A stretch of 32,477 nucleotides of DNA from an uncultured Oscillospiraceae bacterium (GTDB taxonomy: Bacteria; Bacillota; Clostridia; Oscillospirales; Oscillospiraceae). Positions 149 through 11,870 of this stretch are shown here, in pieces. The notes under the pieces are model-generated. The model did not search any database. It was not told the DNA's origin and was given only the letters and a program-made list of their open reading frames with translations. The stretch covers positions 1 through 32,477 of the forward strand of contig CALWXF010000021.1 of assembly GCA_944385445.1 (NCBI GenBank), in the 5' to 3' direction. A program made the position numbers and the translations under genes. The stretch's first letter is position 1, and each line of letters starts with the position of its first letter.

Positions 149-214
149 TTACTTGTCCAGCAGGCAAGCAACACCGGGCAGCTCCTTGCCTTCCAGGAAT
201 TCCAGGGAGGCGCC
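149..214 (-). pseudogene. Truncated second copy of the pgk 3' end
   Basis: Read on the minus strand, this segment encodes the last 21 residues of phosphoglycerate kinase ([21 protein letters not shown]) and a stop codon, the same peptide as the end of the intact pgk at 362-427. The two 66-bp copies differ at 5 positions, all synonymous third-codon positions. There is no start codon or upstream gene body, so it cannot make a protein by itself. It is either the displaced native end of pgk or a relic of a second pgk. Confidence 0.88.
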
Positions 215-361
215 CCCGGCGAAGCAGGCTTCGCCGGGAACCCGGGATGATTTCAATCCTCGGGCGAAGTGAATTCGCCCTGCGGCAAGGTTTGCTTCGC
301 AAACGCTTGGACGCACCTGTGGTGCGGCTCGCTTACGCTCGCGCGGCGGCGCAGTTGGATT
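215..361. mobile_element. Hairpin cassette between pgk and its displaced 3' end
   Basis: About 147 bp of non-coding DNA lies between the stop of intact pgk and the duplicated tail. It holds successive hairpins: CCCGGCGAAGC/GCTTCGCCGGG (215-238), an imperfect stem at 241-264, GGGCGAA-gtgaa-TTCGCCC (262-280), GTTTGC/GCAAAC near 290-304, and GCACC/GGTGC near 313-325. The gtgaa-loop hairpin recurs in the cassette after trmL. No ORF or transposase is present. Calling it a mobile element is inference from the flanking duplication. Confidence 0.5.
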
Positions 362-1555
362 TTACTTATCCAGCAGGCAAGCCACGCCGGGCAGCTCCTT
401 GCCCTCCAGGAACTCCAGGGAGGCGCCGCCGCCGGTGGAGATGTGGGTCATCTTGTCGGCGAAGCCCAGCTGAGCCACGGCAGCAGCGGAGTCACCGCCG
501 CCCACGATGGTGATGGCGTCGGTCTCGGCCAGAGCCTTGGCCAGAGCACGGGTGCCCTCAGCAAAGGCGGGGAACTCGAACACGCCCATGGGGCCGTTCC
601 AGATCACGGTGCCAGCGTCCTTCACGGCGTCGGAGAACAGAGCGATGGTCTTGGGGCCGATGTCCATGCCCATGCGGTCGTCGGGAATGGCCATGGTGTC
701 CACCAGCTCGGGAGTAGCGTCAGCGGAGAACTCAGCAGCGCACAGAGTGTCCACGGGCAGCAGGAACTTCACGCCCTTCTCCTGAGCCTTGGCCATCATC
801 TCCTTGCAGTAGTCCAGACGGTCCTCCTCCAGCAGGGAGGTGCCCACGGTGCCGCCCATGGCCTTGATGAAGGTGTAGGCCATGCCGCCGCCGATGATGA
901 TGGTGTCAGCGATGTCCAGCAGGTTGTTGATCACGCCGATCTTGGAAGAGACCTTGGCGCCGCCCAGAATGGCAACCAGGGGACGCTTGGGGTTGGCCAG
1001 AGCGCCGCCCATGATCTCCAGCTCCTTCTCGATCAGGAAGCCGGACACGGCGGGCAGGTAAGCGGCCACGCCAGCGGTGGAGGCGTGAGCACGGTGCACG
1101 GTGCCGAAAGCGTCGGAGACGTACACATCGGCCATATCAGCCAGAGCCTTGGCGAAGTCAGCGCCGTTCTTCTCCTCACGGATGTCGAAGCGGAGGTTCT
1201 CCAGCAGCATGATCTGGCCGGGCTGCAGAGCAGCGGCCTTGGCCTGGGCGTCCTCACCGATGGTGTCGGTGGCGAAAATGACCTCGCAGCCCAGCAGCTC
1301 GCTCAGGCGCTTGGCAACAGGAGCCAGAGTCAGGGACTCCTTCCGCTCGCCCTTGGGCTTGCCCAGGTGAGAGCAGGCGATGACAGCAGCGCCCTGCTCC
1401 AGCAGGTACTTCAGAGTGGGCAGAGCAGCCACGATACGCTTGTCGTCAGTAATGGCACCGGTGGCCTTGTCCTGGGGGACGTTGAAGTCGCAGCGGCACA
1501 GCACCTTTTTGCCCTTTACATCCAGATCCTTGACAGTCTTTTTGTTGTAGTTCAT
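362..1555 (-). CDS. pgk: Phosphoglycerate kinase
   Basis: This is a 397-residue cytosolic enzyme of glycolysis that moves a phosphate between 1,3-bisphosphoglycerate and ADP to give 3-phosphoglycerate and ATP. The length is normal for the family. Visible motifs are RCDFNVP near residue 21, SHLGKPKG near 62, GGAKVSSKI near 198, [24 protein letters not shown] and the C-terminal [14 protein letters not shown]. The ATG follows AAAGGAG. It reads toward the left window end, downstream of trmL, with two hairpins (1617-1659) between them. Its last 66 bp are duplicated at 149-214 with only synonymous differences, so the 3' end, or the whole gene, may have been acquired from a related lineage. Confidence 0.98.
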
Positions 1556-1667: not shown

Positions 1668-1727
1668 TTACTCCTCAGCCATACTGCCTGTCCCAGACAG
1701 ACCAGGGAAGCCCTGCTGTTTCAGGCC
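1668..1727 (-). pseudogene. Truncated second copy of the trmL 3' end
   Basis: On the minus strand this encodes GLKQQGFPGLSGTGSMAEE and a stop, matching the end of intact trmL (ALKQQGFPGLSGKGSMAKAE). I count 46 of 60 identical bases, one codon of length difference and mostly synonymous changes, including a two-class serine switch (TCG/AGT). It has no start or gene body. It is the second case in the window of a displaced, divergent gene tail lying downstream of its intact gene. Confidence 0.85.
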
Positions 1728-1836
1728 ACCCCCACAAAACCTGTTTTGTGGGGACCCCCGAGGATTTTATATGCGCAGGCCGGAAGTGAATTCCGTCCTG
1801 CTCCGCCGCACCAGCGGCGGCCCGCCGGGGGCGGGC
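1728..1836. mobile_element. Hairpin cassette between trmL and its displaced 3' end
   Basis: About 109 bp of non-coding DNA starts right after the trmL stop and ends at the duplicated tail. Hairpins are CCCCACAAAAC/GTTTTGTGGGG (1730-1753), GCAGG-CGGAA-gtgaa-TTCCG-CCTGC (1775-1801), CCGCCG/CGGCGG (1803-1820) and CCCGC/GCGGG (1821-1835). The gtgaa loop closed by GAA/TTC is identical to that in the pgk cassette at 262-280 while the outer stem differs. CCGAGGATT here also appears inverted in that cassette. Mobility is inferred only. Confidence 0.5.
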
Positions 1837-2325
1837 TTACTCGGCCTTGGCCATCGAGCCTTTCCCGGACAAGCCGGGAAAGCCTTGCTGTTTCAAGGCC
1901 TCGTAGGTGAGGATGGCCACCGAGTTGGACAGGTTCAGGCTTCTGGCATCCTCCCGCATGGGAATGCGGATGCAGCGGTCCCGGTAGCGCTCCCGCAGCC
2001 ACTGGGGCAGTCCGGCGGTTTCCTTGCCGAAAAACAGCCAACAACCGTCGGGAAAGGACACATCGGAGTAGTCCCGGGGCGCTTTTGTGGTGGCCAGCCA
2101 CAGCTCGGGCTGGGGATGTTGGGAGAAAAAGTCGTCCAAATCGCGGTATACCGTCAACTCCACCATAGGCCAGTAATCCAGTCCGGCCCGGCGTACGGCT
2201 TTTTCACTGATGTCGAATCCCAGAGGTTCGATCAAATGCAAATGGCAGCGGGTGGCTGCACAAGTGCGAGCGATATTTCCGCAATTCTGTGGAATTTCAG
2301 GTTCCACCAAAACAATATTGACCAT
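1837..2325 (-). CDS. trmL: tRNA (cytidine(34)-2'-O)-methyltransferase
   Basis: A SPOUT-superfamily methyltransferase of 162 residues that methylates the wobble ribose of tRNA-Leu species, using S-adenosylmethionine. Family signatures are the N-terminal VLVEPEIPQNCGNIARTCAAT, then GLDYW, LFFGKETAGLP and IRIPM...RSLNLSNSVAILTYEAL, which form the trefoil-knot cofactor site. I chose the ATG at 2325 rather than 2340 because AAGGAGGAG lies directly upstream of it and it gives the usual MVNIVLVEPEIP start. The 3' end contains an 8-bp inverted repeat (1861-1881), and a divergent copy of the tail lies downstream. It is transcribed toward pgk. Confidence 0.93.
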   Translation of the reverse strand: MVNIVLVEPEIPQNCGNIARTCAATRCHLHLIEPLGFDISEKAVRRAGLDYWPMVELTVYRDLDDFFSQHPQPELWLATTKAPRDYSDVSFPDGCWLFFGKETAGLPQWLRERYRDRCIRIPMREDARSLNLSNSVAILTYEALKQQGFPGLSGKGSMAKAE

Positions 2326-2340
2326 AATCTCCTCCTTCAA

Positions 2341-3320: not shown

Positions 3321-4721
3321 GTGGTATTCTCTACCCCTTATTTTTTGTTCTTATATTTGCCCATGGTGCTCCTTCTGTACTACATTTCTCCGCTGAAGTG
3401 GAGAAATCTGGTACTGATGGTGGTCAACCTGATTTTTTACGGCTGGGGCGAGCCGGTGTATATCATCCTCATGCTCATCTCCGTGGCCGCCAACCATGCC
3501 TTTGGCCTGGTGGTGAACCGATGCAAGCAAAAGGATAACCAACGGGGCGCCAAGGTTGTGGTGGCGCTGTCGGTGGTGTTCAACCTGGCCATGCTGGGCT
3601 TTTTCAAGTACTGGGACTTCCTGGCCAAGTCTTTGGCAGGGCTGGGGCTGAACATCATGCCCCAGTTCGGTCTGGAGCTGCCCATCGGCATTTCCTTCTA
3701 CACCTTCCAGACCATGAGCTACACCATTGACGTGTACCGGGGTGACACCCGGGTGCAGAAGAACATCATCACCTTCGGCACCTTCGTCACCCTCTTTCCC
3801 CAGCTCATTGCCGGCCCCATCCTTCAGTATAAGGACCTGGATGCCCAGCTGGAGCAGCGGGACCACACCGTGGAGCGGTTTGCCCTGGGTGTGCAGCGGT
3901 TTTGCGTGGGCCTGGCCAAGAAGGTGCTGCTGGCCAACAACCTGGGCAAGCTGTGGGACGTGTATCTGGCCACACCGGGGGCGGAGCTGACCACCCTGGG
4001 GGCATGGCTGGGCATTGTGGCCTTCTCCCTCCAGCTGTACTTTGACTTCTCCGGCTATTCGGACATGGCCATCGGCCTGGGCCGGATGCTGGGCTTTGAG
4101 TTCATGGAGAACTTCAACTACCCCTATATCTCCAAGTCCGCCACCGAATTCTGGCGGCGGTGGCACATCTCCCTGGGCAACTGGTTCCGAGATTACTTGT
4201 ATATCCCCCTTGGGGGAAGCCGGGTTGGGAAAGCCCGCCTGATCTTCAACACCCTGGTGGTGTGGGCTGCCACTGGCATCTGGCACGGGGCCAGCTGGAA
4301 CTTCCTCATCTGGGGCCTGTACTACTTCTGCTTCATCATGCTGGAAAAGCTGTGGCTGGGCAAATACCTGAAAAAGGCCCCTGCTGCCATCTCCCACCTC
4401 TATGGTATTTTTGTTGTGGTGGTGGGCTGGGCCATCTTCGCGGTAGAGGATTTCAATGCTATGGAACTCTACCTCAAGGCCATGTTTGGCATGGGGGCTG
4501 GCTTGGTGGACAGCTCGGCGCTGTACTACCTCTTCAACTACCTGCCTATGCTGGTGGTGGCTTGTGTGGCCGCCACCCCCTTGGCCGCCAAGGTGTGGCA
4601 CAAGATTCCCGCCAAGGTGTGGAAGCCTGCCTTGCCGGTACTGGTGTGTCTGGCCCTTGTGTTGGCCACCGCCTACCTGGTGGACGGCACCTACAACCCC
4701 TTCCTCTATTTCCGATTCTAA
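3321..4721 (+). CDS. MBOAT family O-acyltransferase (AlgI-like)
   Basis: A polytopic membrane protein of 466 residues that moves acyl, usually acetyl, groups across the membrane for O-acetylation of an extracellular polymer. The AlgI/DltB signature is clear: STPYFLFLYLP at the start, EFWRRWHISLGNWFRDYLYIPLGGSR around residue 282, and the catalytic histidine in GIWHGASWNF at 322. I chose the GTG at 3321, which has GAGGTG six bases upstream and gives the canonical VFSTP start; the TTG at 3300 has no good ribosome site. The DHHW gene follows after 14 nt. The acceptor could be a capsular or secondary wall polysaccharide, but nothing here identifies it. Confidence 0.93.
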   Translation: MVFSTPYFLFLYLPMVLLLYYISPLKWRNLVLMVVNLIFYGWGEPVYIILMLISVAANHAFGLVVNRCKQKDNQRGAKVVVALSVVFNLAMLGFFKYWDFLAKSLAGLGLNIMPQFGLELPIGISFYTFQTMSYTIDVYRGDTRVQKNIITFGTFVTLFPQLIAGPILQYKDLDAQLEQRDHTVERFALGVQRFCVGLAKKVLLANNLGKLWDVYLATPGAELTTLGAWLGIVAFSLQLYFDFSGYSDMAIGLGRMLGFEFMENFNYPYISKSATEFWRRWHISLGNWFRDYLYIPLGGSRVGKARLIFNTLVVWAATGIWHGASWNFLIWGLYYFCFIMLEKLWLGKYLKKAPAAISHLYGIFVVVVGWAIFAVEDFNAMELYLKAMFGMGAGLVDSSALYYLFNYLPMLVVACVAATPLAAKVWHKIPAKVWKPALPVLVCLALVLATAYLVDGTYNPFLYFRF

Positions 4722-6149: not shown

Positions 6150-6387
6150 GAACAAAGCCGAACGCCTTGGAAGCTGTGGCTTACAAGGCCATTTGGCTTT
6201 GTTCAAGGTGCAAGGTTTTTGAACAAAGTTCTTCAAAAAACTTGCACCTTCCGCTGATGCGCTGAGGCGCACCAGCGGAAATACGCATTGTAGCAATGGC
6301 TGAATTCCGTAAAAGCGGCTCCTTTGAGCCGTTTTTACGGAATTGCGCGGCTGCTGCCGCGTGAATAAACCGATTTGCGGTTTATTC
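6150..6387 (+). repeat. Seven consecutive hairpins in the two-component leader
   Basis: Between the -10 element and the response regulator start, the leader contains seven back-to-back inverted repeats: 6150-6204 (GAACAAAGCC, GCCTTG and AAGC arms nested), 6205-6250 (AAGGTGCAAG arms with TTTTTGAA/TTCAAAAA), 6251-6278 (CCGCTG, TGCGC), 6286-6298, 6303-6344 (a 19-bp stem with one G-U), 6346-6361 and 6363-6387 (GAATAAACCG). No reading frame crosses it convincingly. It may be a cluster of inserted hairpin elements or a structured 5' leader. Confidence 0.75.
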
Positions 6388-10393: not shown

Positions 10394-11870
10394 GAAGCTT
10401 GGCATCCTCCTGGTGGTGCTGGTGGTGGTCAGCGGCGTCACCTTCGGGGTGATGAAGTACCAGGAGGTCAAAGAGGACATCCGCAACAGCGACGAAATCA
10501 TATTGGAACTTGACCCCACCACCGTCCAGACCCTGTCCTGGACCTATGACTCCAACACCTTCTCCTTCCACCGGGACGGGGACTGGGTGTACGACGGGGA
10601 CGAGGCTTTCCCGGTGGATGAAAACCAGATGGAGCATCTGCTGGAGCCCTTCTCCGCTTTGGGGGTGTCCTTTGTCATTGAAAATGTGGAGGACTTTGGC
10701 CAGTACGGATTGGACGAACCGGTGTGCACCATCGACCTGACCACCGACACGGACCGCTACCAAATCACCGTGGGCAGCTACAGCACCATGGACGAGCAGC
10801 GGTACCTGTCCATCGGGGACGGGAATGTGTATCTGGTCGCCCAGGACCCCATGGAGGAGTACGACGCCCAGCTGTCCGACCTCATCCGCCACGATGATGT
10901 GCCCGACCTGGAGAGCGTGACCTCCATCCAGTTTGCCGGGGCTCAGGAGTACGAAATTACCTACAAGACGGACAGCGACAACACCTATTGCGCCGACGAC
11001 GTGTACTTTCTCCCCGACGGCGAGCTGCCCCTGGACACCACCCGGGTGGAGGGGTATCTGAACACCATACGCTTTTTGAACCTCAGTGACTACGTCAACT
11101 ACAAAGTCACCCAGGAGGAGCTGGCCAATTATGGCTTGGATGCCCCCGACCTCACCGTGACGGTGGACTACACTGTGGAGGATGACGAGGGCAATACCAC
11201 CCACGAGACCTTTACCCTCACCGTGGGCCGCAGCCAGGACCAGAAGGACCAGGCAGCCGACGGGGAAGAGGATGTGTCTGCCTATGTGCGGGTGGGGGAC
11301 TCCTCCATCATCTACCAGATCACCGGGGAGGACTATGAGGCCCTGCTGGAGGCCTCCTACAACGACCTGCGCCATCAGGAGGTGTACGCCGGGGACATCA
11401 AGCAAATCTACCAGGTGGACGTGACCCTGGACGGGGAGACCTACACCCTCACCGCCGACCAGGCGGAGGACAGCACGGTGTGGAGCTATGACGGCAGCGA
11501 GGTGGATGCCACGGAGTTTGAAACCGCCCTCACCGGCCTCACCGCCAGCAGCTTCACCGATCAGGAGTCGGAGGGGAGCGAGGAAGTGCGTTTGAAGCTC
11601 TACCTCACCGACGACAACTTCCCCACGGTGGACATCACCCTCTACCGCCAGGACGGCACCTACTGCCTGGCCCAGGTGGACGGACAGTCCGTGTGCCTGG
11701 TGGAGCGTTCCGCTGTGGTGGACCTCACCGAGGCCATCCGCGCCATTGTGTTGGGGTGGGAAAAAACCACATACAAAGCAACAGCACAGCATTCCAGGAT
11801 TGGAATGCTGTGCTGTGTTTTGTTTGGTGTTAACCGCCTAAGTAAGCCTTTTTCACCGACTCGTCGTTGA
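10380..11870 (+). CDS. DUF4340 domain protein with run-on C-terminus
   Basis: A 496-residue membrane-anchored protein that usually closes GldA-F-G type operons. One transmembrane helix is at 7-25, followed by acidic extracytoplasmic repeats of the DUF4340 kind (LSWTYDSNTFSFHRDGDWVYD; VTLDGETYTLTADQAEDSTVWSYDG). The family-like end is around VVDLTEAIRAIVLG (near 11752). No stop follows: the frame continues through the terminator hairpin and ends 41 bases inside the opposite-strand livF. The last ~38 residues are therefore probably not native and the original stop seems lost. Its role with the exporter is unknown. Confidence 0.85.
   Translation: MKRYKKLGILLVVLVVVSGVTFGVMKYQEVKEDIRNSDEIILELDPTTVQTLSWTYDSNTFSFHRDGDWVYDGDEAFPVDENQMEHLLEPFSALGVSFVIENVEDFGQYGLDEPVCTIDLTTDTDRYQITVGSYSTMDEQRYLSIGDGNVYLVAQDPMEEYDAQLSDLIRHDDVPDLESVTSIQFAGAQEYEITYKTDSDNTYCADDVYFLPDGELPLDTTRVEGYLNTIRFLNLSDYVNYKVTQEELANYGLDAPDLTVTVDYTVEDDEGNTTHETFTLTVGRSQDQKDQAADGEEDVSAYVRVGDSSIIYQITGEDYEALLEASYNDLRHQEVYAGDIKQIYQVDVTLDGETYTLTADQAEDSTVWSYDGSEVDATEFETALTGLTASSFTDQESEGSEEVRLKLYLTDDNFPTVDITLYRQDGTYCLAQVDGQSVCLVERSAVVDLTEAIRAIVLGWEKTTYKATAQHSRIGMLCCVLFGVNRLSKPFSPTRR
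11781..11816. terminator. Bidirectional terminator between ABC operon and livF
   Basis: ACAGCACAGCATTCC and its exact complement form a 15-bp stem with a 6-nt loop. T-rich tracts flank it on both strands (GTTTTGTTT to the right; GGTTTTTTCC on the minus strand to the left), so it can serve both convergent operons. It lies inside the DUF4340 reading frame. Confidence 0.88.

Follow-up and report, generated by a model that had tools for sequence, protein, structure and literature searches.

Introduction

Genomic islands that integrate into the 3′ ends of genes replace the tail of their target, such that the gene keeps a full end and the old end is displaced; such an island has one attachment gene and an integrase. 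Target-primed insertion, as of group II introns and LINEs, involves a structured body, possible base pairing to the target and a target duplication of variable length. As described in the parts of the literature drawn on here, bacterial small mobile repeats and MITEs (ERIC, Correia and others) are short, non-coding, interspersed units with target duplications and structured transcripts (PMC2229807), and the insertion sequences IS1634 and IS1549 produce long target duplications of variable length, for which, according to the 2008 paper, nobody had yet put forward a mechanistic model (PMC2266710).

The stretch of DNA analysed here (the window) is the whole contig C21, 32,477 bp, of a 2.15-Mb genome labelled G000. 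A preliminary description of the window had noted that the end of its pgk gene recurs behind a small hairpin cassette, and had read this as the footprint of an insertion some 21 codons ahead of the stop by an element bringing its own replacement tail, in the manner of integrases though with none present. We find that the cassette belongs to a family of elements that are small (∼135 nt), non-coding and strongly structured. They occur within one bacterial family, the named carriers being Oscillospiraceae. The element family is probably mobile, and a limited literature search returned no description of such an element.

The pgk locus

The pgk gene (397 aa) is an open reading frame on the minus strand at 362..1555. 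Its best NCBIfam match is to the kinase part of the bifunctional phosphoglycerate kinase/triosephosphate isomerase model (NF010569), at 629 bits, under the model cut-off of 883. The last 21 codons and stop form the main tail (T, the left copy of the duplication; 362..427, minus strand), which is 61/66 identical to a displaced tail (T′; 149..214, minus strand) that is in frame with a stop. Among the 21 sense codons there are five synonymous and no nonsynonymous differences, exactly as the preliminary description had it, and a blastn self-comparison places the repeat (149–221 versus 362–434) above chance, at E 7.7e-18.

Between the two tails lies the hairpin-rich cassette, 147 bp at 215–361. It consists of a 9-nt spacer running from the pgk stop to the element (353..361, minus strand) and of the structured element itself (215..352, minus strand), a chain of hairpins with a UUCAC loop and a terminal hairpin that we call family A; the displaced tail begins right at its right end. 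Our covariance model R1 matches this copy at 123.7 bits (E 2.1e-30), the copy having belonged to the R1 training set. The first 10 positions of the model match overlap an arm, g (GCGCCGCCGC; 343..352, minus strand), found by a complementary-run scan to be complementary to pgk over the junction: it forms a perfect 10-nt run with 423..432 (minus strand), the 5′ arm of a target-specific stem that takes in 5 nt upstream of T and 5 nt within it. Folded as the minus strand, 149–440 scores z = −4.8 relative to 200 shuffles; pairing in which the two repeats take part contributes to this score.

Another intergenic repeat (GGATAGACGCATAGGG ... CATGCGTCCAATCCGAGCGTGACA, with inverted ends) follows the displaced pgk tail at 18–143 of the window; it is found also before gpmI on contig C35 (L003, around 905–1010) and as a tandem pair in genome G005. 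Strong self-complementary stretches at 6205–6250, 6292–6355 and 11765–11831 of the window carry no R1 model match.

Other copies in the same genome

The neighbouring gene, trmL (1837..2340, minus strand; an open reading frame matching TIGR00185 at 187.2 bits, slightly under the cut-off of 190.6), has a second, shortened copy of the element at 1730..1838 on the minus strand (R1 58.4 bits, E 3.4e-13; likewise in the training set). The main trmL tail, the left copy of its T, lies at 1845..1900 (minus strand) and matches the displaced tail at ∼1673..1727 (minus strand) with 77% identity by blastn self-comparison. Here the two tails differ in amino acids (KQQGFPGLSGKGSMAKAE versus KQQGFPGLSGTGSMAEE).

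Gene tails were surveyed in the window and 20 G000 stretches (∼432 kb). In this first survey the shuffled null was high from low-complexity antisense frames, and the matches retained were those readable as gene ends. Convincing in-frame downstream copies were found for the tails of pgk, trmL, tsaD and lepA, each with a related cassette, and the nine-base motif AATTCACTT occurs five times in this sample, four of them inside these cassettes. Homology revealed further G000 copies at gpmI (with a 49-bp repeat), at the start of the sdaAB gene and, with no repeat, on contig C23.

Structure and distribution of the element family

R1, of 135 positions, was built from an alignment of nine copies. Over 98 distinct rows all 30 of its 30 modelled pairs show two-sided changes (20.1 in shuffles, 14–21 for slid structures), 98.3% of cells pair and two-sided changes occur in 573 cells (131 in shuffles), figures that come from an alignment fitted to the model and including its training copies, and that lean towards the model to that extent. 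The elements thus form a structured family with covariation. The idea of a pseudoknot joining the UUCAY loop to the A-rich linker was set aside, since on inspection the columns concerned looked too variable. No terminal inverted repeats were detected when the first 30 nt of 131 copies were compared with the reverse complement of the last 30 (mean 6.08, against 6.10 for swapped ends), and Rfam gave no match above gathering score at the elements of the window or at the lepA copy.

The model matches 37 of the 42 genomes of the genus, with 1–37 copies each (E up to 0.01). At the level of the family (E up to 0.001) it matches 59 of the 150 genomes sampled, which represent 48 of 106 genera. A search for the exact pattern in named genomes matched 17 stretches: four from three Pseudoflavonifractor isolates (An85, An44 and P. 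capillosus An386a), ten from metagenome assemblies of Oscillospiraceae or of unnamed or less exactly named bacteria, and three in unrelated phyla, which may be due to chance. Since isolates carry it too, it is unlikely to be an artefact confined to a single metagenome bin.

The lepA copy has no plasmid match. With one tsaD copy as query, a phage collection gave a single match, an unverified 4,960-bp ‘Bacteriophage sp.’ record (MT838705.1; L265) with two partial element copies at 1–235; we rejected it as a phage and read it as bacterial, because a release-factor-3-like GTPase is encoded beside the element copies. In G004 one element (L209) lies at the end of a phage terminase gene, such that copies exist also on prophage-like DNA.

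Direct repeats at gene ends

Flanks were analysed for 129 copies with at least 40 nt on both sides, two of 131 having been excluded for short flanks. They comprise all 11 matches in G000, 34 of 38 in G016, 27 of 31 in G004 and 8 in G017 (three of the 38 in G016 and four of the 31 in G004 were left out as the weakest), plus selected copies elsewhere, which were picked by high score or tandem place and not randomly. A repeat was accepted when its right copy begins 0–6 nt past the right end of the element and its left copy ends at most 60 nt from the left end.

By this rule a direct repeat of variable length, 29–157 bp, is present in 87 of the 129 copies (7/11 in G000, 20/34 in G016 and 18/27 in G004), compared with 15 of 1000 pairs of swapped flanks. 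In most examined copies T′ adjoins the right end of the element. Four more copies are longer variants with ∼110 extra nt (L109, L093, L196 and the second copy of L122), in which the displaced copy begins 106–117 nt past the model end. The remaining 38 fail both repeat rules, at least three of them narrowly (L097, L120 and L224), and no convincing larger autonomous copy was found near these 38. One G016 locus with no abutting repeat (L193) has a 33/35 repeat 501 nt to the right of the element and is possibly a larger relative.

The preference for gene ends is clear. An open frame of 250 codons or more, with its stop ahead of the element, contains the junction in 51 of the 87 cases, while the same criterion holds for 80 of 1740 places drawn at random from these loci. 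A looser automatic gene assignment called 52 of the 87 ends, 26 starts and 9 neither; since it also called 797 of the 1740 random places starts (and 266 ends), its starts carry no evidence alone and the rule is usable for ends only. It mislabels as starts lepA in G001 and trmL in G000 and G017, all of which are ends. Six starts are backed by a family match from the protein N-terminus (sdaAB, typA, miaA, lepA, uvrC and a copper-type ATPase), and the lepA gene of G016 (L098) has the element at both its start and its end (1533–1666 and 3535–3674).

Proteins were scanned for 36 of the 43 neighbours listed for G000, G016 and G004, and 32 of the 36 gave a family match. The genes are mostly core: pgk, tsaD, lepA, trmL, gpmI, uvrB, uvrC, mutS, infB, aspS, ileS, secA, gyrB, enolase, glmS, serC, gdhA, trmFO, mnmG, ychF, miaA, typA, ruvX, yhbY and others, together with one phage terminase. 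A single element family is found beside ∼30 different named genes, each time with that gene's own sequence, and it accounts for gene fragments that lie between genes in these gut genomes.

In several gap-free repeats T′ is followed by the start of a second element, forming tandem repeats of the T–g–E unit (E being the element). Tandem arrays of the T–element unit, with a period of ∼215–255 bp at one gene end, were seen at L110, L111, L112, L113, L114 and L115 and in other pairs. Base counts at the junctions show a mild G excess only. First junctions are unreadable at lepA, tsaD and pgk, because there the repeat terminates at the stop codon or very close to it (a few nt) and no relationship is seen between the flanking non-coding sequences.

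Differences between the gene tails

Between main and displaced copies we counted 158 synonymous and 36 nonsynonymous differences (52 loci, 1012 codons), a count that favours synonymous change in that each multi-change codon was scored as one nonsynonymous difference and the rest synonymous. The expected synonymous share is 26% under random change and 42% if the gene copy alone is constrained, with nominal P of 6e-58 and 6e-30 for loci that are not independent. trmL stands outside this count because the assignment rule had called it a gene start. Row sums are 31:1 for five G000 loci (without trmL), 64:7 for 12 G016 loci and 23:18 for 14 G004 loci. The preliminary description had argued that a drifting copy should gain amino-acid changes as well; a synonymous excess is general over these loci, and the G000 trmL tails do carry amino-acid changes. 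The G004 tails are near what drift after duplication would give, and the ratios of G000 and G016 suggest that coding sequence already diverged was imported.

At pgk the comparison can be made strain by strain. The closest match to the main tail of G000 is that of G017 (64/66); for the displaced tail it is the one tail present in G005, a genome without the cassette (64/66). Main and displaced tail agree with each other at 61/66. The two G000 tails thus probably come from different lineages, as had been proposed, on a handful of sites. At individual positions the main tail looks mosaic, again on few sites: its state is shared by G003 alone at −43 and by G017 and G001 alone at −7; the displaced tail is G005-like throughout, save for a private state (−52) and one common to G003 (−22). 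A reciprocal crossover within the pgk tail was considered and dropped, the displaced tail being simply G005-like. The sequence that follows the displaced tail downstream matches G003 (138/148) almost as well as G017 (137/148) and does not discriminate.

Strains of the kind that the preliminary description suggested looking for do exist: in G003, G001 and G005, all cassette-free, pgk runs straight into a similar tail and downstream sequence. Near-sister tails within one strain, which it had named as evidence against its model, also exist: in G017 the two pgk tails are 65/66 alike, and the cassette between them is 147/147 identical to that of G000, even though the pgk genes of the two genomes differ at 49/1194 sites (P about 0.002 if cassette and gene had diverged equally). 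Two full pgk genes in tandem, the other such sign, did not appear: the matches listed for 42 genomes include no further one of full length.

A second match to the pgk tail within ∼250 bp was found in 8 of the 42 genomes, G000 among them. G020 and G041 have a related cassette at the same point of pgk, and their displaced tails, partly deleted in G020 and frameshifted in G041, otherwise match the main tail of their own host. The displaced copy therefore enjoys no protection, and exchange or renewal of copies takes place within lineages as well.

Inspection by eye turned up displaced pgk tails behind a different hairpin element, family B (GGGGTCCCC..GTGGGGAGAGGAGGAGC..GAGCTTTCGCC..GGCGGAAGCG..), in G016 (L041), G007 (L055) and G040 (L058), at other points of the pgk tail than family A; its arm in G016, CCGGGCAGCTCC, appears complementary to pgk, likewise by eye. 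In G035 and G036 the displaced pgk tail alone appears to have been kept (by eye).

The target-complementary arm

The order along the element is gene body (B), main end (T), arm (g), element (E), displaced end (T′) and native flank. The arm is the reverse complement of ∼2–8 nt of B and 5–16 nt of T, and sits between the main gene end and the element, often extending into the first bases of the latter. A perfect complementary run of at least 7 nt is present in 75 of the 87 repeats (swapped control, 379/1995), and in 55 of these the run crosses the B|T junction (swapped control, 85/1995). In 53 copies a gapped complementarity score averaged 12.9, against 6.8 when swapped, and 16 of the 53 reached the 99th percentile of the control. 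The arm matches the gene around the B|T junction. At lepA of G000 all 19 of 19 nt of the arm pair, the fold consisting of this stem and then six hairpins; at pgk the run is 10 nt in both G000 and G017.

Five loci are informative on where the arm comes from. In L222 the flank after T′ has in common with the arm only the first 5 nt, CGCCG; the other nine are present only beside the element, where they copy the opposite strand through the junction. The arm of L072 comprises 6 native and 7 new nt and that of L198 comprises 4 native and 7 new nt, the seven being found only beside the element in each case, and in L116 and L202 the arm begins exactly at the end of the sequence shared with T′. Extension of a free 3′ end that had folded back onto a short inverted match in the native sequence would leave such a trace. 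Of the 64 non-tandem copies that bear an arm, 26 have it begin inside the part shared with T′, and at L194, L213, L102 and L200 most of it is also present after T′; arms so placed agree as well with a target that already was an inverted repeat, or with an array whose second element was lost, as they do with fold-back.

Search for partner enzymes

DDE_Tnp_1 and TnpB-type domains were searched in nine genomes, and Y1_Tnp and RVT_1 in 42. RVT_1 had no match in G000, G004, G016 or G020, and was present in 25 of the 42 genus genomes, including copy-rich G015 and G038, and also G017 and G018. DDE_Tnp_1 (PF01609) had no match in those same four or in G018, and four in G015. None of six element-bearing genomes tried had a TnpB-type match over cut-off, those in G016 and G020 being weak. 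The Y1 transposase was not matched in G000, G004 or G020, was matched once weakly in G016 (E 5e-7) and once strongly in G015, and is present in four of the five element-free genomes of the genus. The RRXRR (IscB) search was silent in element genomes and equally in all controls. In the genomes searched, none of the reverse transcriptase, Y1, TnpB-type and DDE enzymes shows consistent co-occurrence with the element.

Proposed explanation and its rivals

We favour, with a probability of roughly two in three, an explanation in which insertion of a structured element is accompanied by duplication of its target, the arm arises by fold-back copying, and strains later exchange the products. Most likely the duplication arises with insertion: insertion would duplicate some 30–130 bp, and copies at gene ends would survive because the gene keeps a full end. 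The arm would be made at the same time by fold-back (snap-back) copying, in which the strand past the gene end would pair with itself through a few native complementary bases and copy back to just beyond the junction; E would then be joined and synthesis would resume at T′. The enzyme for insertion may be one not yet recognized, or none may be involved, with spread by ordinary homologous recombination, and fold-back is favoured in this form because RVT_1, DDE_Tnp_1, TnpB-type and Y1 matches are absent or weak in G000, G004, G016 and G020. It counts against fold-back that g takes in a few bases from upstream of the junction although these are missing before T′.

From the tail comparisons we infer that the foreign tail of G000 came from a later exchange between lineages, which paired tails of different origin. 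Either homologous recombination would carry the element-bearing end from strain to strain, or allelic exchange would replace the main end of the gene; such an exchange would have given G000 a G017-like main tail next to a native displaced tail.

More tentatively, insertion might write its own target address, each jump copying a short reverse complement of the target gene beside the structured body, a proposition that we regard as possible but doubtful. If it is true, g would act as a guide or hairpin substrate and return the element to the same gene in other strains, and gene ends would be swapped between species without an integrase or resident reverse transcriptase.

The strongest rivals are RNA-guided homing and insertion at a native hairpin. 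In the former, g would be the 5′ guide of an RNA g–E and pair with the target gene, and the opposite strand would be nicked a few nt from the scaffold end of the guide. The free 3′ end at T′ would prime copying of E, g and the upstream mRNA tail, and the end of the copy would recombine with the gene body, leaving the donor's tail as main T and the native tail as T′. Tails of different lineages, repeats that end at the stop, synonymous-only differences and an arm across the junction near a fixed offset are all predicted, and elements recur within ∼1 nt of one point in lepA and in pgk in several genomes. Homing is nonetheless unlikely given the silence of RVT_1 in four genomes, three of them the richest in copies, and of TnpB-type domains over cut-off in the six tried (weak matches in G016 and G020), and given tandem arrays and G004 drift that fit plain duplication.

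The other rival takes an inverted repeat across the gene end as the target: E would enter at the foot of this hairpin, the duplication would cover the hairpin, and g would be native. The 26 non-tandem arms that begin within sequence shared with T′, almost wholly so at L194, L213, L102 and L200, are what it expects. We nevertheless judge it quite unlikely, since in L222, L072, L198, L116 and L202 little or none of the arm is present in the flank that follows T′, where a native arm should be unless a later exchange had taken it away.

A simple origin of the G000 arrangement, in which the pgk end was duplicated locally and one copy then drifted, would suit the near-identical G017 tails, and the G004 copies and the G000 trmL copy resemble drift; it is made very unlikely by the five of five synonymous changes at G000 pgk, by the 31:1 ratio over five G000 loci and by the different nearest relatives of the two tails.

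Site-specific integration, the model of the preliminary description, in which E would carry an attachment site and a replacement gene tail as genomic islands do, has in its favour that the G000 tail beside the cassette is of other origin than the displaced one. As an origin it is largely refuted, and we hold it highly improbable: the same E is found at ∼30 different named genes, each with its own sequence, the 147-bp cassette is too small for an integrase gene, and the G017 tails are near-sister. Equally improbable is a miniature derivative of a DDE insertion sequence of the IS1634/IS1549 type, despite direct repeats of 8–514 bp reported for that type in the part of the paper used here (PMC2266710); G000, G004, G016, G020 and G018 have no DDE_Tnp_1 match (G015 has four), E has no terminal inverted repeats, and a target-specific arm is not predicted. 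Coding selection on the displaced copy, which might for instance serve as an alternative end of the gene, would account for the synonymous excess of 158:36 and is the most far-fetched proposal, given the frameshift in G041, the partial deletion in G020 and the main copy's own stop upstream.

Comparison with known systems

This is a widespread family of bacterial elements that duplicates the ends of conserved genes, with tails of probably different origin side by side and a target-complementary arm at most examined copies. With dozens of natural junctions available, fold-back copying can be told apart from guided insertion, from hairpin targets and from plain recombination. Like islands at gene 3′ ends, it leaves a full gene end and a displaced old end; unlike them, it is found at ∼30 genes and its element has no coding capacity. 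With group II introns and LINEs it shares a structured body, possible base pairing to the target and a target duplication of variable length; its body is too small by comparison, and four element-bearing genomes have no reverse transcriptase match.

The comparisons that follow extend to the parts of the cited papers drawn on here. The element family resembles MITEs in being short, non-coding, interspersed, duplicating and structured (PMC2229807), but differs from them in having no terminal inverted repeats, repeats of 29–157 bp instead of short fixed ones, and a target-complementary arm at most sites. It shares long, variable direct repeats with IS1634/IS1549, which however are DDE transposons of 1.5–2 kb (PMC2266710), against an element of ∼135 nt and genomes G000, G004, G016 and G020 with no DDE_Tnp_1 match. 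REP sequences with TnpA-REP are, like this element, hairpin elements dependent on single-strand structure (PMC8266576, PMC3733652). REPs are of 20–40 bp, with a GTAG end in one large group (PMC8266576), whereas the element model has 135 positions and a consensus without GTAG; of the Y1 transposase associated with REPs, G000, G004 and G020 have no match and G016 has a weak one. No such arm features in the accounts of small mobile elements compared here, as far as the parts used extend (PMC2229807, PMC2266710, PMC8266576). On these accounts the known small repeats, the REPs and the long-duplication insertion sequences each have one feature in common with the element and lack others.
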